DNA of 64,000 bases from Basidiobolus meristosporus CBS 931.73 (taxonomy: Eukaryota; Basidiobolomycota; Basidiobolomycetes; Basidiobolales; Basidiobolaceae): assembly GCA_002104905.1 (NCBI GenBank), contig MCFE01000061.1, forward strand, positions 124,001 to 188,000, written 5' to 3'. The translations under genes and the position numbers were made by a program. Below the pieces are notes generated by a model. It searched no databases and was not told the origin of the DNA. It was given only the letters and a program-made list of their open reading frames with translations. Below are positions 46,583 through 64,000 of the stretch, piece by piece; positions within the stretch are counted from its first letter, which is position 1, and each line of letters begins with the position of its first letter.

Positions 46583-49500
46583 TTAAAATAGCCCATTGTT
46601 GAAAGCGGGGGATCTTCTAGGCTCAACAATGGCTTGAAGCCTGCGCTTGACCGTTCGGAATTTTGGATCTTTTAGAGTGATCTTAAGCGATTTGAGTAGC
46701 TTTAAATATGTTGTCTGTCTTGCTGAAAGCGTAGTGTAGAAGGCAGACATTCCCAGCCTAACAAGATTGCCCGTTAGTTATAGAGATACCTTCTGAATCT
46801 ATGGAGACTATCCAACTCACCAAGTCACCTCAGCTTCCGTCACGCTCATCAACGCAGGCTTCGCTTCTTTCGGACTAGGTCGTGATCGGCTTTTCAATAA
46901 GACATATCCGAATTGTACTATGTCGTATATTATATCTTCACGAGAGTTGAGAAAGGAAATTGATGGGATGAAGGCATGAAGCTAGCCGAGGCGTACCTGT
47001 TAGATGCTGCTCTCGTTGCTGGTGGAATGTTCTCAAGCTCTGTGAGTATCTATGGAATTTCATGGCGCATAGCAGATAGCTCTGGTAGATGTTCAGTAAT
47101 ATGGTAGAGACTTGATTGAAGCCAGGGTTGATAAATATTGGATGAAAGCGAGGCTTCAGCACTCTAGTAGAACAAGATGAATTTCAGCTCCATAATTATC
47201 TTCAAATCTGATCAGTAATCCTTACTGCATCAATTTATGCCGAAAAGCGATCCCAGGTTTGTTGATAGTCTCAACTGTCAGAGTGTTATTGATATCTAGA
47301 AAAGGCCGGAAGGATTAGTTACTCTAGCTCATCCATTCCAGCATCGAGCTACTTACAAGTTCCTATATACCGATTGTAGTCGGTCTTGACATCAAGAGTT
47401 CGGGTGTTTATCAATAGGCCACACCAAGGAAATTCTAATAAAATGAATCAGATACACATCCAATTGTGTTACAAATAGCGTATGTACACAACCAAGGTTG
47501 TTCTTATTTTCAACTGCAATACGGCTGACAGATTCCCCATGAATTTTTACTTCGAAATTCGTCAAGGTTTTTTGGGGATTGATGAAGCACCCATAATCCG
47601 CATTTCCTAGGTGAGCATGTATTAACACTGAACCTAATAGCATGACAAGCTTTCGAATCTCCAAGCACATACCAGTATGCATCACTTCGAGGAACCGTAT
47701 CACTTTACTCTTGTCCAAACTGATGTAAAGAAAATCGTCCACTAGTCTCAACAAAAGCTACATATTGAATAGTGTTAGTAAATCATGGATGAAGCGGGGT
47801 TTTTGCTGTTTACTAACTCCGTCATTGGTTGCATTAATAAATGCCAGGTGTTCCTTTTCGAAGTGGCCGTAAAAAATGCTAAATACCAGGTTAGCAACTG
47901 TTTCATTACTACGTCTCATTAGTGGCGTACCTGCAGAGTAGGGTAGACACAATCGAGCCTTGAGGTATGCCACCAGTTTGCTTGTAAAACTTATTGTCTA
48001 TCTTAACCAGATTCTTGGATATATGCTCCTCTAATAAAGTTAAAACTGTGCGAATATCTTCAAATCCGTAGGCAACCTATGGACAATGCACCAATGAGTC
48101 ATGCAGCCTATAAAACGTCAAATTTTCGATAATACCTGATCTATGAAAACAACATGCTGCATATTGCTCGCCATATCTTGCGCCAGTTCCGGAAATTGCG
48201 TAAAATCATCTAATGATAACCCGCTTAGATAAGAAAATAATTTATGGCTCACATAGCATAGTTACCTCCAGCACGAGCTTTCCGAATAAATCTCTTCCTC
48301 AATCTTCCCGCTGATGGATAAATAGCGGTGTATTTCTGAAGCATATATTCTTCCTAGTGAATCGAGATCATATGAATGGGTCGCTCAAAGCAATCCTTCC
48401 TGCGAGGACATACTTCCTTGAAGATCGCCTTCAGAATGGATAGTAACTTAGCTTGATTAATAGAATCGAAAGCTCCTTTGATATCCACTTTGGCAAAATA
48501 AAATTTCGAGCTGCTATCCAGTAAGCACCTCTAAACCGCAATTAGATGGATTAACATGTATCTTACCTTGCGTTGTCGACAAATATTCTGGCTTTGAATT
48601 CTTTCAGTTTCCAGTATATGTCATTCATACCCAGAACAGAGCTTCCCATAATGTCCGGTTGACGCGCCTATACAATTGTTCATCGGGTAAACTTAGTGGC
48701 AAAGTTTCAGGTCAACTTGAAAGATACACGAAAACGACCTTTTCAAAAGTCAATATCTGAAATGCATTTTGCAATAGGGTATTGATGGAAAGCCCTAGCT
48801 CTTTCTTACGACTTTTTGTTTTGCTCTGGACAGTGCTGGATAGCTATAGAATGCTTAGTATAGAAAGATAGCAGATATACCACGTTGTTTCTTTACATTC
48901 TTGATGTATTTTCGGCGTAAATTTACGATTGGACGTACGCCATTCTCTTTTGGCAATAGTCGTAAATAAGAATAGCCGATATCGCGATTTAGTAGTATTG
49001 TCTGTGCCTCGTCCTAACATATAGATGCAGTGAAGAGTAAGTCAGTTGTACTAATGCAGACAAATATGCCACACGCACTATACTGATTCTTGTATATATA
49101 CTGGATATAAGCTTATTCAATGCAGGCTTTGAAATTGTCTGCCAGAAATCTTGTCTGAAGTAAAACACACGATTACGATGCTGTGAACTCTCAGTGATGT
49201 AAAAATTCGTCTGTTGGTAGTGTTAGATTGGTTATTCATCTCTAATCAAACCTGATTTACCCACTTTCAATAACGGTATCACTATCGAGTTAAAAAGGTA
49301 CGAAACAAATTCGTTGAATAGTTCTTTTCGTTTTTCCGTATCACTGGGGGCTTTGTGGCCTGTTTTGACGCGATCCGAATCAAGCCATTCACAGTCGCTG
49401 AGCTAGAGTGGGTTTAGTAAAGAAAGGAGCCAAGGAGTCAAAACAAATAACAAACCTTAACGTTCTGTACAATTTGATGAAGCGACATTGACTCATACCT

Positions 49501-56118: not shown

Positions 56119-56893
56119 CTATGGGTCCCAAGCTATCACTCTCTGCAATGTCAACTACTGCTATTACTGAAATTTTTCCCTCTGCTGTAAAGTTGGATGG
56201 ATCTAACTACCAAGTGTGGAAGGTCAAGATGAAGATGCTCAACAAGAAATAGGCCTTTGGGATATTGTCATGGGAGAAGATTGCCCTCCTAAAAATGTGG
56301 GAGAGGAAGCCTTGAAGTACCAGAAGAAAGAACAAAGAGCCTTCAACTGCATTTGCCTCAATGTTATAGACAAATTGCTAATTCAATGCTCAAGAGCAAA
56401 AATGGCAAAGAATGCCTGGAAGGCATTAGAAGACACCTACCAGTCATGTTCAGCTGCTAAGAAAATGTATCTGAGACAAAAATTCTTTACTACAAAGATG
56501 CAGCTGGTAGAAGAAATGAAAAATCTAACTAGCAGAATTACCCTGCCGGTAGATGAGATGGAATCTGTGGGCATACCAACTACTGATGAGGATGTGATAG
56601 TAACTATCCTGAATAGCCTGACAGACAAGTTTCAGGGCCTTGTATCAGCCCTAGAGTCCAGAACTGAAGATTTGACCTTAAATTACGTATATGGAAGGCT
56701 CCTGGATGAAGAATTAAGAAAATCAAGTGTCAATAAGAAGGAAGAAGAAAATGATTTAATAAGCAATGATAACCAACAAAGAAGGTACATAAGACCTTAC
56801 AAAGGCAATAGCAACCTGTTTTTCAACCTCTGCAAAAGGAAAGAACACACATCAGACCATTGTGTTTTGAATAGACACAAGGCAGGAGAGTAG
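56119..56893 (+). pseudogene. gag: copia Gag remnant (DUF4219/UBN2-like), frameshifted
   Basis: ATG 56119 opens MGPKLSLSAMSTTAIT and reads SNYQVWKVKMKMLNKK before a stop. The Gag text then continues in another frame from about 56216 (EIGLWDIVMGEDCPPKN, then KNAWKALEDTYQSC, LTSRITLPVDEME, GRLLDEELRK), so one frameshift lies near 56240-56250. The CCHC zinc knuckle near the end reads FFNLCKRKEHTSDHC, with the first cysteine lost or moved. Not functional as it stands. Confidence 0.85.
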
Positions 56894-57368
56894 GGCTAGG
56901 TAAGGCAGGACCAGGAAAGGACTTAGGTGTGGATCAACAAGGCAAGGCTGTTTATTCAAGACCTGTGTTTATCAGACTGAGGAATACATAAGGGGGGATA
57001 GGACTATATATACTTTTTGGCAATATGGATGCTGAGAGATATTGGCTAATACTGATGGGGTTCTGGGGTGAGGCACAGTAAGTGTGCCAAGATAGAATAT
57101 ACTAAAGAACAGACTGGAATATCACATGGAGATATGTCAGGGGTCAGCTGATCATGTAACTAGGTCATGTGATATGTAGTTAGCATATATGGCATGGGAC
57201 TACATAAACTCTAATGGGAAGCTTCCATAGAATGCTCCATTGTGTAACATTGACTTGGAGCTTTCAAGAAGTTGTTAGAATGTAGTAGAACTTTCTAGAA
57301 GGAACTGGGATTTCTTCACTGACTTGATTTGGCTAGATAATTGGAGACCAGGGATGTCATGTGATCAT
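56879..57368. mobile_element. About 490-base insertion between gag and protease
   Basis: A non-coding block interrupts the element between the Gag end and the protease. GACAC occurs just before (56874-56878) and just after it (57369-57373), a possible 5-base target duplication. On the minus strand it holds a TATA-like run (AGTATATATAG) and an AATAAA, an LTR-like layout. It starts there near a palindrome (CATGATCACATG). It may be a solo LTR of a second family. The edges are uncertain. Confidence 0.5.
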
Positions 57369-58281
57369 GACACAGTGTCTCAAAAAGAGAGATAATCAGC
57401 AAAAGAAGCCTGAAACTGGGAATACTACAACAACTGAAGATGGACTATTCATATCTGCACTAAATAGGACCACAAACAAGGACTCTCAGACGTGGTATAT
57501 TAGCTCTGGAGCATCTCAGCACTTTACACACCAAAAAGAACTATTTACCCAATATCAAGAAATTCCAATCAAGAAGGTTTTCATGGGTGACAATAGAACA
57601 CTTGATGCAGTGGGAGAAGGAACTATCCAAGTAAACCTCAGAAGCAGTGAAGGAAGCCATACATGAACCTTTAAAGAAGTACTTGATGTATCATAAATAG
57701 CCAAGAACCTACTATCTGTAAGCAAGGCCACAGCAGAAGGACTCAGTCTTGGCTTTGACTATTCAGGATGCAGGATCACTGATCAAAATGGTGCCCATAT
57801 TGCTTTGGGCATCAGAGATCAGAATCTATACAAGCTGACTTATATTCCATCATATTTGGAAGCCAATATAAGTAACTTAAATGAGGAAACACCAATGCTT
57901 TGGCACAGAAGATTTAGGCACATCAATTTTGATTATTTACACAAAATGATCAAATATCAGCTAATTTCTGGAGTAAAAATTGATCCCCCAGCTAATTTGG
58001 AGCACTGTGAAGCCTGCATATATGGGAAACAAGCCAGATAACTGTTCAAGAGCTCTAGGGTTATCAAAACTAAGAAAAAATTAGATCTAATTCACTCAGA
58101 TCTGTGTGGACCTACGCAAAATTTATCCTTAGGTGGGATGAAGTATTTAATCACTTTTATTGATGATTATATAAGATATACATGGGTCTACATCATGGAG
58201 AGAAACAAAGAAGCTCTGTCTAAGTTCAGGGAGTTTAAAGCCATGGTGGAGAGAGAAACTGGTGAAAAAGTTAAGATTACC
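57361..58281 (+). pseudogene. pol: copia protease, GAG-pre-integrase and integrase start, broken
   Basis: The protease region reads QTWYISSGASQHFTHQKELF, where copia proteases have the catalytic triad D-S/T-G; the Asp is replaced by Ser here. After stops near 57664 and 57695 comes NLLSVSKATAEGLSLGFDY, then the GAG-pre-integrase domain (MLWHRRFRHINFDYLHKM, CEACIYGKQAR). After another stop at 58039 comes the integrase core (LIHSDLCGPTQNLSLGG, FIDDYIRYTWVYIM). The catalytic triad's first Asp (HSD) and second Asp (DD) are there, but the frame ends before the DDE glutamate. Not functional. Confidence 0.88.
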
Positions 58282-58821
58282 TGATATCAAGGTCAAGTAT
58301 TCCAGATAACCTCTTAAAATAATGTCTGAGAACATATTCTATAATCCTCTGAAAATGATCAGAGTTAGTAAGCTGGTGGAATATACAGGTTAGTAAGGTA
58401 TATTCCAGGTTTCTCCAATCCTACAGCTCCCAATATCTCAGGTAATAGCTTTTTGGCCAATAAGCACTACATTTTCCAGGTGGAGATTAGGTCCACTAAT
58501 TTTCATACCAAATCTGGCAGTCACCTGCTTACTGCTTGCACCAGAAATTGTAACTAATACCTTCCTGGAAAGTACATCATCAGAAGTGCCCCAAGTTTGA
58601 GATTTTCACAAGGTTAGGTGTTAAGTACAAAGTTAAAAACAAACCTTTAGAGATAGCTCACTACTGGGAATGCATTAAACATGTCAGTATCTTGAAAAAT
58701 CCTGTTGCTAGTTTATTGAGATACTTGGCTTCATAACCAGTCAGTATTATTCACTTCATTTGAACTTAACCAAGTAGTATAACTTACTGCTTACTCACCA
58801 ACATTCAAAGATAGCAGAATC
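58282..58821. other. Remnant internal sequence of the copia element
   Basis: About 540 non-coding bases where reverse transcriptase and RNase H should be. Neither was detected in any frame. Confidence 0.6.
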
Positions 58822-59166
58822 TGTTGCAAATACAATAATTGCACCTAAATATTCATCTTACTTGACCACCTAGGCCATTACCTACAAGTGTCTAAGAATT
58901 CTGACACAATTCCTTGTCAAGATTGGCTTAGATTATGTTTAGGAAGATCCCAAGAACCTGTGTACAAAGCTTGGGGCTGCTTGAATAACCTTTAGAGATG
59001 TCTTGTTGTGGGTACCTGATGATTTGCAGATAATATTCTATGTATTTGTTTTGCCAAGACCATGCAAAAGAAAAAATCCATCTTTTACAACCCTAACCCT
59101 AAGTGAGAACCACATAATCTACTTGTTCAGCCAATCACATCCAATATCTCCAAGACTCTTACAACA
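58822..59166 (+). repeat. 3' LTR of the copia element, carrying a telomere-like patch
   Basis: 345 bases from TGTTGCAA to TTACAACA, aligning with the 5' LTR and the inverted solo LTR. At 59090-59102 it has ACCCTAACCCTAA where both sister LTRs have TTCAATAA-type sequence. See the findings. Confidence 0.85.
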
Positions 59167-60437
59167 AGATTTCTAGCATAGAAATGAGCAGGTTGAGTAA
59201 CAAGTTATCCAATAGCCACCTAAGATTATAACACATTTGATTGGCATTTGTCAGCTTGTTTCTGTATACAGATCTAGCAAACTCCACAACCGCAGTAATA
59301 TAAAAATTCAGCTTCTCAATCCACAAGCAAGAAAAACCTCTCAGCTGACCACAAACAGATTACTTTCAATCCCCTAGGGGCATGGGCATGCCAATGGCTC
59401 GCATAATTCATTCAAAGTGTAAGCGCTGAATCAAACAAACAATTGAATCACCAGTGGTTACATTTGTCAATTGGGTCATCAGCTCAAGGAATCTCACATT
59501 ATTGATCAAATGTTGTTTCAATGATCGAGTCAACTACAAAGTAGTCTACACATGCTATACATATATCTAAGTAATGGATATATGAGGTACCTTTTGGTCA
59601 CAATTGTCCGACCTATAAGATGAAATGATAGATATACATAAGCTCATCTGTTTGACAGCCAAGTCTTCCTCGCTGGAAGTCACCCAGTCCGGTTTGTGTC
59701 TCTTGATATCTACATCTGCGAAGGCATCCATGGTGCCACGGTACACAGTGTTGTAAAATTAAACCAAATGCCGCCTCATATTAAACCCTACTCGGTCCTT
59801 TTTGTAAGGAAGATATATATACAAGGGCCTGTCAAAGAATGTTCCGATGAGTGAAGGGAGTGAGCGCCAAAGTAGCAAGAGATGAGATAAATGGCAGTCT
59901 GGCCATGGTATTGGGTGGGGTACCACCAGAAATCGGAAATGTCCTCTGTAGACCAAACAACAAAGGTGCCATGGAATATTTTGGTGACACTACGAGTCAA
60001 TTCCTTTTATGGAATATTTACTCAACCATCGATCATCGATGATACCGAAAATCTTCTAATGTTTACCTAATATTTCATTCATATCTAGATAGCATCAACC
60101 CATTTTGGCTGGCCAAAAGCCTTTGCAGTGTGATCTCAATTGTTAGTTGATTGACGGCTCCGTAGCTAATTGAATGAAAACACATACGCACTCTCAAAGC
60201 TAAGATCCGAATTCCATACCAGGGGAAACTGGGATATGTCTCGCAGTTTGGTGCCCCTTCATGGAGGATAGATGAAGTAGCATTCGCCAACTCACTGATC
60301 ATAACTATACAATGGACGATGTAACAAAAGATTTGATTTCAGCAAAAGCCAACATACAACACACATGGGTCAACACAGTGGGAAAATTGGTAGCGAGGTA
60401 GCGAATGCGCATCAAATGCGAGTGACCATGGTGGGGG
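59167..60437. other. Intergenic between the copia element and the glycosyltransferase-like gene
   Basis: About 1.27 kb. Frames at 59759-60000 (minus) and 59851-60042 (plus) have no family resemblance. Nothing else recognised. Confidence 0.45.
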
Positions 60438-61700
60438 CTATTCATTGGTCCAAGCCTCCCAGTCTAGACTATGGATAGTGTCTTGCGATTGGGTCCGAAG
60501 TAGTGATACCAACCGGGCAATGTTCGAGCTGTAGCAACATATGAACTCCTCAGCTGTAGCTGCTAGTGTAATATCTGTGATAAGCTCAGCTGTTTGCTGG
60601 AACTGATGTTTCTCGCTAGTCACCTGGAAGTCAGCTGGCTTATAGCCTTGATGCTGCTCCAGTGGTGACCAACTGGTGGTACTTCTAGGGAGGTGAGTAA
60701 ATGCATCCGACAACCCGAATACCTCGATATTGTGATGGTGCGCCAAAAGGCTCCGCAACTCCAGCAGAGCATCATCATCATCACCGAGTACAAACAGGGC
60801 GATTTCTCTGTTGGGATACTTTGTACTGGATAATTCCTGGAGTTTCTCCACAAATACAGAAGTTTCTACTTTCTTTATCTCCCTCCGCAGCTTGTCTTTC
60901 CGATGAATATGCATCGAGATCAGAATCCGGTTGGAATCTTCCACATAATGTTTCCGAATGCTGTTCACCACATCCATGATGACTGGCTTCGGTTCCCACA
61001 ATGCCTGTGCGACGACCTTTTTTCTTGCATACACTGGCTGCTTGATTGTCGCGATTTGGTGGTAAAAATCATCAAAGTTCTCCCCTGAATGAACTACAAA
61101 CACATGGCCATTGAATCCTGGTTCTTGAATATCCTTTGGGGTACCTGATGCTTCGTGCCAGCGCTCTGCACCGGGAGAATAGGTGTCAAGAACAATTGGT
61201 GCGTGTGTGTCTTGCGAATAATCGTAGAAGAATGTAGACCACGATACATGGCACCACTCACGCGATTGTATGTGAAATGCAACATTATTATCGAGAGCGA
61301 AGAGGAACGCGCTGAACGCGTCGTTAATGTAGCTGCCGAAACCGGCGGTACACTTTGTCAGCATGAATGTAATGGAGGGCGTCTCTAGGGTGTAGTTGTG
61401 GGGTGGATAGGACTCTCTCAATACCTGAACATCGGATGAGTTATATAGAGGTCTGATCCAGGTTTCCTGCGGAATCTGCAGTCTGACTAAGAAGAACAAT
61501 ACCAGCATACAGCACAAGAAAAACATCAGGCTGCAAAGAAATCTAAGATATCTACGAGATGGTCTATAGCTATTTACTGGCGGTTCATTGCCTTCTTCGA
61601 AGCGAAGCAAACTCCATTTGTTTGTTTTCATTACATCGGCAGCTTTCCTTCTCCAGTAGCCCAAGGTGAGCTTGGGTGAATCAAACCAAAATTGATACAT
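60438..61700 (-). CDS. Type II membrane glycosyltransferase, fucosyltransferase-like
   Basis: A minus-strand gene of about 420 codons from ATG 61700. The frame is open to 61853, but a TATA box at 61741-61746 argues for the shorter form. A cytosolic N-terminus of about 50 residues is followed by one membrane segment (YLRFLCSLMFFLCCMLVLFF, about residues 51-73), then a lumenal domain. The lumenal part has TKCTAGFGSYINDAFSAFLFA, VFVVHSGENFDDF, ISMHIHRKDKLRREI and IALFVLGDDDDALLELRSLL, ending in a SWSPLEQH region and TAAEEFICCYSSNIARLV. The H-I-H/R-R-x-D-K phrase and the late SSNIARL phrase resemble the nucleotide-sugar part of alpha-1,6- and O-fucosyltransferases (GT23/GT65-like). Donor and acceptor are inferred. 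A Golgi location is likely. Confidence 0.7.
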   Translation of the reverse strand: MYQFWFDSPKLTLGYWRRKAADVMKTNKWSLLRFEEGNEPPVNSYRPSRRYLRFLCSLMFFLCCMLVLFFLVRLQIPQETWIRPLYNSSDVQVLRESYPPHNYTLETPSITFMLTKCTAGFGSYINDAFSAFLFALDNNVAFHIQSREWCHVSWSTFFYDYSQDTHAPIVLDTYSPGAERWHEASGTPKDIQEPGFNGHVFVVHSGENFDDFYHQIATIKQPVYARKKVVAQALWEPKPVIMDVVNSIRKHYVEDSNRILISMHIHRKDKLRREIKKVETSVFVEKLQELSSTKYPNREIALFVLGDDDDALLELRSLLAHHHNIEVFGLSDAFTHLPRSTTSWSPLEQHQGYKPADFQVTSEKHQFQQTAELITDITLAATAEEFICCYSSNIARLVSLLRTQSQDTIHSLDWEAWTNE

Positions 61701-62481
61701 AATTATTAAAAATGAGGAAAAAAACCCTGACGCTTGCGTATTTATAAGGGCCGAAGATATGCCAAGTTTGGCACAATCGCTACCCCTGCACCTGAAGTTG
61801 AATCTAGTGATTTCCTTACTGAATCTGGTCACACTTATTACCAAAGACAGCAAGTAGTCGGCATAACACCATCAGAAGAAGCCATTGTCACTTGCCCTCA
61901 TGCACTATCCAACCTACCCAAGAGTCCTCATATGCGGACCATGAACCCTTGTTCTCAGATACTGCGTTCTAGGGCCAAGTGAACAGTTGGTTCCATGTAT
62001 GATTAGTTCCGTGATGCCTTGATGGTCAATGCAAGTTATTCCTGGGCAAGCATCGGTCACCAAGTCTTATATATGTGATCTGTGATATTGCACAAGTGAG
62101 CGATGTAGGAATGCTCTAATCACAACATATTCCACAGTGTATAGAAGTGATGAGAACTGGCTCACATCTTCTATTGAGATGACGCCGGGGTAAGCGGAAA
62201 CTTGGAGCTGATTTGGGTATTTAGGCGCCACTGTGCAGTTGATAAATCAGCTAATGGTGATCTATTTCATCTAATTGGTAGGCCCCCAAACTACAGGATC
62301 GTGTTGAGAGTTGGCAACCGTAAAGACTCTTGCCATGCCATAACTGGAAATTAACATTACAAGATATTGTGGTATTCACCACAGTGCGAAATCCAAGATA
62401 AGTATGGTAAAATACTTGAGTTATACTTACCCCCAAAGTACTTGATCCCAGGACCCTGATTTCATACAACAATGAATATTA
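61701..62481. other. 5' flank and spacer before the retroposon array
   Basis: About 780 bases, including the TATA region. Frame 61734-61982 (plus) is a shadow. Nothing else recognised. The array begins at about 62482. Confidence 0.45.
61741..61746 (-). promoter_or_regulatory. TATA box of the fucosyltransferase-like gene
   Basis: TATAAA on the minus strand, 41 bases upstream of ATG 61700 and inside the longer open frame that starts at 61853. It favours the shorter start. The implied 5' leader is very short. Confidence 0.45.
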
Positions 62482-62649
62482 GGGGGGATGAAAGTCACCA
62501 GGTGTTGAAATTTGTACGGTTGCTGATATGTGGCCAGAATGGCCAGTAGACTGGGGGCCCTGAGAGGAGTTTCTTGGCAACTACCGGCCAAGTTTACTAG
62601 GCAAATATGACCAATTAGTATTTCAGGGATTTCAGCCAATATAGCTTCA
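62482..62649 (-). mobile_element. 5'-truncated SINE-like copy (array unit 5)
   Basis: On the minus strand: a body with GGCTGAAATCC, CCAATTAGTATT-type sequence and GGCCATTCTGGCCA, matching 63181-63300 in unit 2. It ends with TTCAACACCTGGTGACTT and a C-run. The stem is imperfect here. Its 3' end joins ordinary DNA at about 62481. Confidence 0.75.
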
Positions 62650-62730
62650 GGGGGGAGACAGTCACCTGCAGGTGATATCTTTATTTCAGTTGAAACAAAG
62701 AAGCCAGTATTACTGTTGTAACTTTTATTT
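62650..62730 (-). mobile_element. 5'-truncated LINE 3' end (array unit 4)
   Basis: About 80 bases on the minus strand that keep the last codons of the LINE frame (AAG TTA CAA CAG TAA, K-L-Q-Q-stop, as at the end of unit 1). The tail follows: ACTGGCTTCTTTG, AATAAAGATATCACC, GGTGACTGTC and a C-run. It is a very short 5'-truncated copy, as LINE target-primed reverse transcription often produces. Confidence 0.78.
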
Positions 62731-62916
62731 AGGGGGGAGGAAAGTCACCAAGTGGTGAAATCTTTATTTACTTATGACAAGTATCTAAAGAAGCCAAGTT
62801 AATCTGAGGTAATTCCTAGAAAGCTAGGTCTGAGAGATATCTTCCTGGTAAGCCAGGTCTGAGAGTTGAGAAGCTGAGTGGTACTATATTTCCTAGTTAG
62901 CTAGGTCTGAGAGAGG
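62731..62916 (-). mobile_element. 5'-truncated SINE-like copy (array unit 3)
   Basis: About 185 bases, almost identical to 62935-63119 in unit 2. It carries three hairpin repeats and the terminal TCACC-AAGT-GGTGA stem-loop (as read on the plus strand), then a G-run at 62731-62737. It is separated from unit 2 by the TTAGGG tract. Confidence 0.82.
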
Positions 62917-63134
62917 TTAGGGTTAGGGTTAGGGGGGGAGGAAAGTCACCAAGTGGTGAAATTTTTATTTACTTATGACAAGTATCTAAAGAAGCCAAGT
63001 TAATCTGAAGTAATTCCTAGAAAGCTAGGTCTGAGAGATATCTTCCTGGTAAGCCAGGTCTGAGAGTTGAGAAGCTGAGTGGTACTATATTTCCTAGTTA
63101 GCTAGGTCTGAGAGAGGTTTCCTGGAAAGCCAGG
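62815..63134. repeat. Seven covarying 14-base hairpins followed by TCTGAGAG-like tag
   Basis: Stem-loops with a 5-bp stem and 4-base loop at 62815-62828, 62844-62857, 62892-62905, 63016-63029, 63045-63058, 63093-63106 and 63121-63134. The stems are CCTAG/CTAGG or CCTGG/CCAGG, with loops AAAG, TAAG or TTAG. Six are followed by TCTGAGAG and the last by CCTGAGAA. Positions were read directly. Confidence 0.85.
62917..62934. repeat. Interstitial telomere-like repeat (TTAGGG)3
   Basis: Three perfect TTAGGG units, plus strand, followed by more G and then the terminal motif of unit 2. They sit exactly between array units 3 and 2. Confidence 0.95.
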
Positions 63135-63450
63135 CCTGAGAAGTGAGAATCTGAATATATCTGAACTAAGTTATACTGGTTTGCGGTAGCTGAATTGTGG
63201 CCGGAATGGCCAGTAGACTGGGGGAACTGAGAGGAATTTCTGGGCAATCACTGGCCATATTTACTAGGCAAATCTGGCCAATTAGCATTTCAAGGATTTC
63301 AGCCAATCAGAGCCTTTACTTTGCCCGATGGTTGATCAAGCCATCTCCCAATGAGCACACATCAATTTATTAATCAAATTTTGCTGGATCCAGGATTTGA
63401 ACCCACAACCATGGGTATGGAAGGGTTAGGGATAACCACAAGGCTAAGTA
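62935..63450 (-). mobile_element. tRNA-headed SINE-like element (array unit 2, longest copy)
   Basis: About 516 bases, minus strand. From its 5' side: the tRNA-related head at 63393-63450 with box A and box B, a body with GGCCATTCCGGCCA-type short palindromes, the covarying hairpins, and a 3' tail. The tail has GGCTTCTTT, AATAAAAATTTCACC and GGTGACTTTC, then a C-run that passes into TTAGGG repeats. The tail shares GGCTTCTTT, an AATAAA signal and the terminal stem-loop with the LINE tail (units 1 and 4). It has no coding frame. Confidence 0.75.
63393..63450 (-). repeat. tRNA-derived head with Pol III-like A and B boxes
   Basis: On the minus strand a box-A-like TTAGCCTTGTGG (63436-63447) precedes a box-B-like GGTTCAAATCC (63393-63403) by about 32 bases. 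The start TACTTAGCC looks like a tRNA 5' end. The anticodon arm and acceptor pairing do not fold as a good tRNA, so I treat it as a tRNA-derived SINE promoter, not a tRNA gene. Confidence 0.7.
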
Positions 63451-64000
63451 GGGGGGGGAGACAGTCACCAACAGGTGAAATCTTTATTTCAATTGAAACA
63501 AAGAAGCCAGCGCTACTGTTGTAGCTTTGATACAAGAGTGTGTAGCTGAGGGGAATTTGTAGGTAAGTTAATAAGAAGTGATGATAGTTCTTCAGTGCTC
63601 AAGACACTGTTCAGTGGGAAGGGGGGTAGCAAGAGAGGTAAGAATGACTTGTGAACAACATTAATGAGGGGAATATGATAAGGATTGATATTCATCATAA
63701 AGGGAGTGTGCTGCTGCAGATATTGCTGCCAAAGGTCTGTTAAGTACTTCAGGTAGGCCAGCTTGGGTTTTTCTGACTGCAGAATAAATTCAGCAAACTT
63801 CTTGACTTCAGGATCTCCTAGTATAGTTCTCCAGCAGGAGCCAGGTGTTGTGTGGTGTATTCTCTTCCAGGCCTTAATCAGTGGGTTGTTGCAGTTGTGA
63901 AGTCTGAGGTATAATCTGGTTCTAAGGTAGAGAAGTCTGATCTTATAGGGCATAAACCCAAAGGCACCAAGAATAGCATGTCTGTAGGGGCATTCAGGCA
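63451..64000 (-). mobile_element. Non-LTR retrotransposon (LINE) 3' end, runs off the window (array unit 1)
   Basis: Minus strand. An ORF open from the window edge down to 63513 is followed by a 3' tail (CAATTGAAATAAAGATTTC, then TCACC-TGTT-GGTGA) and a C-run at 63451-63458. The remainder of the element should lie beyond 64000. Confidence 0.7.
63513..64000 (-). CDS. LINE reverse transcriptase C-terminus, partial
   Basis: Open to the window edge, so the listed ATG at 63953 is internal. The text PECPYRHAILGAFGFMPYKI followed by RLLYLRTRLYLRLHN is typical of the segment just after the reverse transcriptase palm in R1/TRAS-type non-LTR elements (LG.LP...R.L.YL.RL). The rest (WRTILGDPEVKKFAEFI, LTDLWQQYLQQH) is less conserved. 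The ORF ends K-L-Q-Q-stop. The catalytic motifs are outside the window, so activity cannot be judged. Family placement is inferred. Confidence 0.6.
   Translation of the reverse strand, partial: PECPYRHAILGAFGFMPYKIRLLYLRTRLYLRLHNCNNPLIKAWKRIHHTTPGSCWRTILGDPEVKKFAEFILQSEKPKLAYLKYLTDLWQQYLQQHTPFMMNINPYHIPLINVVHKSFLPLLLPPFPLNSVLSTEELSSLLINLPTNSPQLHTLVSKLQQ

Follow-up and report, generated by a model that had tools for sequence, protein, structure and literature searches.

We analysed a 64,000-nucleotide stretch of the Basidiobolus meristosporus CBS 931.73 genome (hereafter the window), which comprises bases 124001-188000 of the 193,232-bp contig MCFE01000061.1 (C880) in an 89 Mb assembly of 1311 contigs. 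Positions 62482-64000 of the window hold five units of long and short interspersed elements (LINEs and SINEs), all on the minus strand and in one orientation, as an initial annotation of the sequence had proposed and as direct reading followed by mapping against reference copies confirmed. These units belong to a subtelomeric array that was probably built by a telomere-directed retrotransposon system of the non-long terminal repeat (non-LTR) type. The right end of the contig, 5.2 kb beyond the window, consists of 29 perfect TTAGGG repeats (locus L051:5055-5232), and the last 5.2 kb of C880 contains further units of like kind and a tandem 86-bp repeat besides this terminal tract, showing that the window stops inside the array.

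Unit 1 (63459-64000) is the 3′ part of a LINE of family A and matches 2233 of 4397 bp at 98.5 % identity when its continuation beyond the window is included. It contains the C-terminal 161 amino acids and stop codon of open reading frame 2 (ORF2; 63513-63998, minus strand) and the hairpin tail TCACC-TGTT-GGTGACT (63463-63478, minus strand), with a G-run on the plus strand at 63451-63458, and it extends to approximately C880:189693 (L051:1693), where it is 5′-truncated and followed by telomeric GGGTTAGGG. Unit 2 (62944-63449) is a SINE previously considered full-length; it covers 506 of the 514 positions of the full-length copy at 97.6 % identity and lacks the first 8 nt. Its head carries an A-box-like TAGCCTTGTGGT (63435-63446, minus strand; two mismatches to TRGYNNARNNGG) and a B box GGTTCAAATCC (63393-63403, minus strand; no mismatch to GGTTCRANTCC), both scored in the full-length copy, and its hairpin tail lies at 62944-62959 on the minus strand, identified like that of unit 1 by pattern match. 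Unit 3 is a SINE fragment (62743-62918; 176 of 514 positions, 99.4 %), unit 4 a stub of LINE family A (62660-62728; 69 positions, 88 % to the LINE) and unit 5, the most proximal and most diverged, a SINE fragment with a body at 62517-62640 (C880:186517-186640; 86 %) and a tail of imperfect hairpin and C-run at 62482-62508, the SINE sequence between body and tail being absent and the DNA proximal to the tail lying outside the units. The two proximal units are thus the most diverged (SINE 86 %, LINE stub 88 %) and the three distal ones match their references at 97.6-99.4 % identity, a gradient expected if an array grows outward, although this is one example only.

The stem-loop TCACC-N4-GGTGACT occurs exactly in the window only four times, always on the minus strand (starts 62660, 62743, 62944 and 63463), and once more with one mismatch in unit 5 (62493), in agreement with the imperfect copy annotated there. 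Allowing up to two mismatches, the hairpin pattern was found 23 times in the window compared to 3.8 ± 2.1 times in 100 shuffles. AATAAA-like bases had been assigned to every 3′ end; AATAAA is present in units 1-4 and absent from unit 5. It had also been proposed that each unit starts right where the preceding C-run ends. The join between units 4 and 5 lacks TTA; the remaining joins contain telomeric bases, namely TAGGG plus the G-run between units 1 and 2, (TTAGGG)3 (62917-62934, plus strand) between the truncated 5′ end of unit 3 and the G-run of unit 2, and a single TTAGGG plus the G-run between units 3 and 4. The (TTAGGG)3 join holds two of the four matches to TTAGGGTTAGGG in the window (≤ 1 mismatch; 0.25 expected).

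Searches of the whole assembly, whose counts are lower bounds (40/713, 150/1378, 144/543 and 51/1279 candidates scored), identified many further copies. A 541-base query spanning the SINE and the adjoining LINE tail gave at least 96 matches (40/713 scored), all in one orientation, and flipping the query flipped the orientation of the matches. The LINE C-terminus gave at least 150 matches (150/1378 scored) over the whole query at 98-100 % identity, 141 on one strand and nine on the other. The shared tail pattern occurs 1022 times in the assembly, 953 in reverse and 69 in forward orientation, with none for the reversed-pattern control. Association with telomeres, through addition at or extension from the C/G-rich end, had been suggested from the window and is supported genome-wide: rather than being mainly internal in varied orientations, 57 of 59 LINE copies are no more than 15 kb from the contig end faced by their own 5′ end, where 7.0 would be expected under a uniform distribution. 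These 59 copies, on 49 contigs ≥ 50 kb long, were drawn from the 70 of 150 LINE matches with contig size known, all nine plus-strand matches being included on purpose; a copy at C405:136266, 4.7 kb from the end, stands outside the 59 and would count as terminal.

TTAGGG forms the end of several array contigs, and telomeric repeats border units on either flank. Units directly next to TTAGGG, a check proposed with the initial annotation, were found at three contig ends: L003 has a truncated LINE capped by 39 TTAGGG repeats, L016 has a full-length SINE capped by 34, and in L012 TTAGGG flanks a hairpin-only stub of approximately 30 bases on either side. Of 156 tails from fetched loci, 154 of which were assigned, 125 have TTA in front of the G-run; a further 20 have TA, 10 have A and one has none of these. 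Because loci L002-L030 had been retrieved by a query that crosses the SINE-LINE junction and are thus a biased sample, the counts were repeated without them, giving TTA in 47, TA in nine and A in four of 60 units. As TTAGGG runs straight into the G-run in the 125 tails with TTA, the C-run said to end each unit is composed of telomeric CCC, part of CCCTAA, in addition to the element's own Cs.

At the opposite side of the units, 49 of the 76 readable truncated 5′ ends continue at once with at least five in-phase telomeric bases. Microhomology at these 49 junctions is 1-3 nt in 33, absent in 14 and 4-5 nt in two, reaching at least 2 nt in 25 of them, with a mean of 1.57 nt compared to 0.76 nt in a simulation of random joins. 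Telomeric tracts within arrays are short: 140 of 156 tails have no more than 9 nt of in-phase repeat ahead of the G-run, and the maximum is 25 nt in a 40-nt view that clips some runs, such as those in L007. Among the 103 assigned junctions that are followed by another tail, the 96 with linkers of ≤ 60 nt were used for the tract count, the seven longer ones being excluded; tracts between units reach approximately five repeats and the longest before a G-run is 32 nt. Perfect terminal repeats at the four contig ends read to the end number 19, 29, 34 and 39. Some units are joined to G-ending non-telomeric DNA.

We identified at least five families with one tail, comprising the LINE families A and C, the ORF1-only elements B and D, and the SINE. 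Family A, with its length and 5′ end taken from a single copy (C853), is approximately 4.4 kb long with an ORF1 of 502 codons, an in-frame TGA-CTA and an ORF2 of 922 codons, the first methionine of which is residue 142, past the GDLN motif at 125. The stop is TGA in all of the 100 listed of 150 flank matches (≤ 2 mismatches). In family C, ORF2 comprises 949 codons with the first methionine at residue 59, both copies read have a TCTGCC-TGA-CTAC junction, and ORF1 stays open over 428 codons up to the edge of the locus in one copy and is frame-broken in the other (L099). The C-termini of A and C ORF2 are 45 % identical, with synonymous change at saturation across 252 codons. A UGA CUA context is a strong readthrough signal, and its retention in families as diverged as A and C is best interpreted as programmed readthrough of the stop codon, by which a fused ORF1-ORF2 product is predicted to be made; a literature search on readthrough in LINEs, covering parts of the sources, returned nothing obviously on point.

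ORF2 contains a reverse transcriptase (RT) domain (RVT_1, PF00078; 7.7e-25) and an N-terminal apurinic/apyrimidinic (AP)-type endonuclease domain, for which the best Exo_endo_phos match among three members is 3.7e-6, while family A alone gives 0.0022 for Exo_endo_phos and 4.3e-5 for Exo_endo_phos_2, both below curated cut-offs. The presence of RVT_1 and of AP-type endonuclease motifs assigns the element to the APE-type LINEs. The N, Y, GDxN, D and SDH positions of the endonuclease are kept in A, C and P0001, and a Glu present in 43 of 44 relatives (one gap) is Asp in all three. In a first alignment, where a Gly pair also appeared lost, 30 of 56 relatives had been chosen by the E-motif, GDxN and SDH, such that its conservation figures are partly built in; the repeat used 44 of the 56 chosen by GDxN alone. 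A dead endonuclease, suspected from a degenerate QETH-like motif, was dropped as an explanation, all but the Glu to Asp position being kept. A profile of the endonuclease region gave no convincing match among solved structures (best E 0.7), and restriction-like endonuclease patterns (CCHC and R/KPD..D/E regular expressions) were found in none of six ORF2 proteins, a sample without family C. Family A groups with five unnamed proteins (sources ena and lgn) in one clade (FastTree support 1.0), beyond which scores drop from 1281 to 148 bits at approximately 30 % identity, some of these more distant proteins being named jockey or X-element like.

In elements B and D the only reading frame ahead of the tail is that of an ORF1-like protein (242 and 266 amino acids respectively). 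B ORF1 is 35 % identical to that of LINE A (2e-22) and D ORF1 44 % identical to that of B (2e-74). The search with D gave at least 145 matches (144/543 scored), about half of them D (≥ 67 %) and half B-like (46-49 %), and internal stops are absent from 122 of the 145. The within-family ratio of nonsynonymous to synonymous substitution (dN/dS) is 0.18-0.25 in five of six pairs, which share sequences and in which frames were taken from stop to stop, and indicates that B and D ORF1 are under purifying selection. Both elements (L007, L036) have tandem repeats in their 5′ part, and D additionally contains telomere-like CCCTAACCC motifs. The transfer RNA (tRNA) head ascribed to the SINE has an A box with two mismatches and an exact B box, a combination equalled in 2 of 5000 shuffles, and a tRNA origin is plausible.

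The hairpin tail common to LINE and SINE was confirmed by comparing one copy of each of the five families, which share TGGCTTCTTT, AAATAAAGATTTCACC and TGGTGA. Their common 3′ end reads TGGCTTCTTT, AAATAAAGATTT, TCACC-loop-GGTGA and the C-run; the two hairpin arms match exactly in 149 of 156 tails, and the loops vary, chiefly among TGTT, ACTT, TACCTT, AACTT, CTTT and CTGT. The tail common to SINE and LINE is that of a LINE-dependent SINE, and dependence itself is predicted. The proposed LINE/SINE pair is correct in that both share the tail and too narrow in that at least five families do so, two of them ORF1-only. This five-family tail, the partly telomeric C-run and the in-frame UGA-CUA between ORF1 and ORF2 are all additions to the initial annotation.

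These observations suggest a mechanism in which the autonomous elements A and C would supply the enzyme and B, D and the tRNA-like SINE would borrow it through the common 3′ end. Element RNA may be bound through the hairpin, as the sharing of the tail implies, and its C-rich 3′ end would then be placed on the GGG of the 3′ end of the telomeric G-strand, in the register seen at the junctions, with either a natural or eroded end or an endonuclease nick as primer. Complementary DNA made toward the RNA 5′ end would become the new distal sequence and would often be 5′-truncated, which is the anatomy of the units. Telomerase would presumably add TTAGGG to the new end, often at the 1-3 nt of microhomology present at the junctions, and repetition together with exchange between ends could produce arrays with their 5′ ends distal. 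More specifically, we tentatively envisage a telomere-end retrotransposon community beside telomerase, in which readthrough LINEs A and C, HeT-A-like B and D and the SINE, with one hairpin and C-tail, would be copied by reverse transcription straight onto the 3′ G-strand at short chromosome ends and telomerase would cap each addition, an account whose chances we put slightly below even.

A number of findings weigh against telomere-directed addition of this kind or against parts of it. The full TTA before the G-run is absent in 31 of 156 tails, 27 of 76 truncated 5′ ends lack five telomeric bases next to them, and seven of 103 junctions have linkers longer than 60 nt, some with other sequence. 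A degenerate array lies approximately 97 kb into C558, and C726 has a LINE-SINE in inverted orientation. Almost every catalytic position of the endonuclease is retained, which weighs against end-priming without nicking. Of 26 junctions from full-length SINE to LINE, 19 consist of exactly one TTA plus the G-run, in a query-selected sample; one junction may have spread by recombination or read-through RNA. Neither ARAGORN nor Rfam (E ≤ 10) detected a tRNA in the SINE head, hairpin stability is modest relative to shuffles (z -0.8 to -2.8) with the best fold of B pairing differently, and one D pair has a dN/dS of 0.82 (23 changes).

The short tracts between units and the joins to G-ending non-telomeric DNA favour ends as primer, whereas the retained endonuclease favours nicking. 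Under endonuclease-dependent insertion into telomeric repeats, as in TRAS/SART or MoTeR, ORF2 would nick the G-strand after GGG within the tract, which fits both the uniform register after GGG and the retention of the AP-type domain at N, Y, GDxN, D and SDH, with Glu replaced by Asp in A, C and P0001. The tracts between units would then have to be short through insertion near the telomere base or later loss, reaching approximately five repeats and not the 19-39 seen at four contig ends, and some joins to G-ending non-telomeric DNA and a 5′ microhomology above that of random joins fit it less well; we consider this route possible but somewhat doubtful. Exchange between ends probably also happens, given that the 19 SINE-LINE junctions have the same form. 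That the arrays spread and expanded mostly by break-induced replication or unequal end exchange, with little new retrotransposition, is however unlikely. The recurrence of this junction at many loci, the even spacing of copies in C476, a truncation point that recurs in L035 and the precedent of MoTeR arrays (PMC7367193) would agree with it, but truncation points, unit orders and proximal flanks differ among many copies, frames are intact in many copies with dN/dS below 1, and hairpin-only stubs lie between telomeric repeats.

Two other explanations were rejected. The terminal appearance of an ordinary dispersed LINE/SINE family could result from an assembly that breaks at repeats, and this assembly is fragmented into 1311 contigs, of which those of L005, L021, L026, L041 and L049 end inside an element without TTAGGG; the consistent 5′-outward orientation, the TTAGGG on both sides of units and the terminal telomeres beyond them make this very improbable. 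A single tandem duplication, named at the outset as an alternative for the five units, finds some agreement in Tandem Repeats Finder, which calls units 2 and 3 as a 201-bp repeat of 1.9 copies. These two units differ in their 5′ ends and have telomeric repeats in between, and across the array LINE and SINE units alternate with differing truncation points and divergence (86-99 %) and with telomeric repeats between them, leaving this explanation virtually no probability.

The internal array of C558 (L076, C558:95000-98500) consists of degenerate LINE, SINE, B and D pieces, and the inverted copy on C726 lies at 58500-59300 (L077). Both are candidate relics of end fusion or internalisation, or misassemblies. 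Approximately 13 kb proximal to the array the window contains a TERT-like gene, recognised from the two matches of the genome search to Telomerase_RBD (PF12009; 1.6e-8 and 9.7e-7, three candidates scored), both at 49109-49423 on the minus strand. The second match contains a TAG and nearby frames are broken up, presumably due to introns. At the ends of C880 (L051:4185-5054) and C853 (L054), an 86-bp tandem repeat and approximately 600 bp ending in AATAAAGCACTAGAA directly at CCCTAA adjoin the terminal telomere and may represent a further telomere-associated element without the hairpin. Elsewhere in the window are pieces of a copia-type LTR retrotransposon (56207-58041, plus strand; Retrotran_gag_2, 8.7e-36, and gag_pre-integrs, 2.1e-16), a condensin ORF 100 % identical to K493DRAFT_387433 and, as the longest frame just proximal to the array, a 477-codon open frame (60438-61871, minus strand) with no Pfam match at 0.001. 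Overlapping matches to (TTAGGG)5 in the assembly number 6978 in forward and 73 in reverse orientation, an excess at right ends that we attribute to contig orientation and into which we read no biology. Counts of 21-36 per end in the three fully listed contigs suggest well over 100 telomeric contig ends, and hence either very many chromosomes or separate haplotypes.

The Basidiobolus system works like MoTeR/FoTeR or HeT-A/TART and is a member of neither. Features of the MoTeR/FoTeR type found here are the telomeric position, the distal 5′ end and the telomeric tracts at junctions. With MoTeR1/MoTeR2 of Magnaporthe (Pyricularia) oryzae and the FoTeRs of Fusarium oxysporum it shares a fungal host, TTAGGG telomeres, truncated copies and telomeric tracts at junctions. 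With MoTeR alone it shares distal 5′ ends, arrays, a second related element (MoTeR2) and internal relics, which the C558 and C726 copies resemble (PMC7367193). MoTeR (PMC7367193) and FoTeR (PMC12857005) are CRE/SLACS-related with a restriction-like endonuclease, whereas the Basidiobolus LINE has an N-terminal AP-type domain and restriction-like patterns in none of six ORF2, and the system adds ORF1-only elements, a SINE and a common 3′ hairpin. The term "sine" does not occur in the accessible text of the MoTeR paper (PMC7367193, as a word start) or, as a whole word, in that of the FoTeR paper (PMC12857005) and a review (PMC8381367).

HeT-A, TART and TAHRE of Drosophila lie with the 3′ end proximal and the 5′ end distal, are added head to tail and include an RT-less Gag-only member beside RT-encoding members; that system is not known to include a SINE. 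Orientation, head-to-tail additions and an RT-less ORF1-only member with a conserved ORF1 are common to both, and from dN/dS and intact frames the RT-less B and D elements appear to keep their own ORF1 as HeT-A keeps Gag. Drosophila is without telomerase, for which HeT-A/TART stand in (PMC5537684), in contrast to Basidiobolus with its TERT-like gene, TTAGGG telomeres and TTAGGG between units.

TRAS1/SART1 of Bombyx mori are likewise LINEs directed to telomeric repeats with endonuclease and RT in ORF2. They sit in long telomeric arrays, whereas the tracts between Basidiobolus units reach only approximately five repeats. TRAS1/SART1 recognise and cut TTAGG repeats (PMC4700185). In Basidiobolus the AP-type domain is present with Glu to Asp, the insertion register is uniform and the domain may cut the telomeric repeat at a fixed position. 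Penelope-like elements belong to a different RT class. Their endonuclease-deficient members, Athena and relatives, are also telomere-associated with short telomeric stretches (PMC2861651). Basidiobolus differs from these in having a LINE RT and an AP-type endonuclease domain. Stringent-type SINEs such as UnaSINE, with its partner UnaL2, are tRNA-derived and have a 3′ tail in common with the partner LINE; the pol III boxes in the head and the LINE-like stem-loop tail are the same here but the target is the telomere. The mammalian HAL1 (half-L1) is similarly an ORF1-only derivative thought to use the LINE RT, and differs from B and D in not being telomeric.

Our literature searches returned no telomere-directed SINE and no Basidiobolus telomeric elements, consistent with the description of the elements as new, Repbase being outside this search and an entry there possible. 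We regard the system as a new one, in which telomeric LINEs of the AP type are accompanied by ORF1-only elements and a SINE. If the proposed mechanism is true, it would include the first telomere-directed SINE and constitute a convergent HeT-A/TART system in an early-diverging fungus. It would make it possible to test directly how a LINE enzyme selects a chromosome end as its primer, how that end is shared between telomerase and retroelements, and why RT-less elements keep ORF1, the HeT-A question, in an organism with a TERT-like gene. Where the fungal telomeric LINEs in the literature consulted (MoTeR and FoTeR) are of the restriction-endonuclease type, Basidiobolus provides an AP-type lineage in the same niche with a hierarchy of dependants, the ORF1-only elements and the SINE, on one tail signal.

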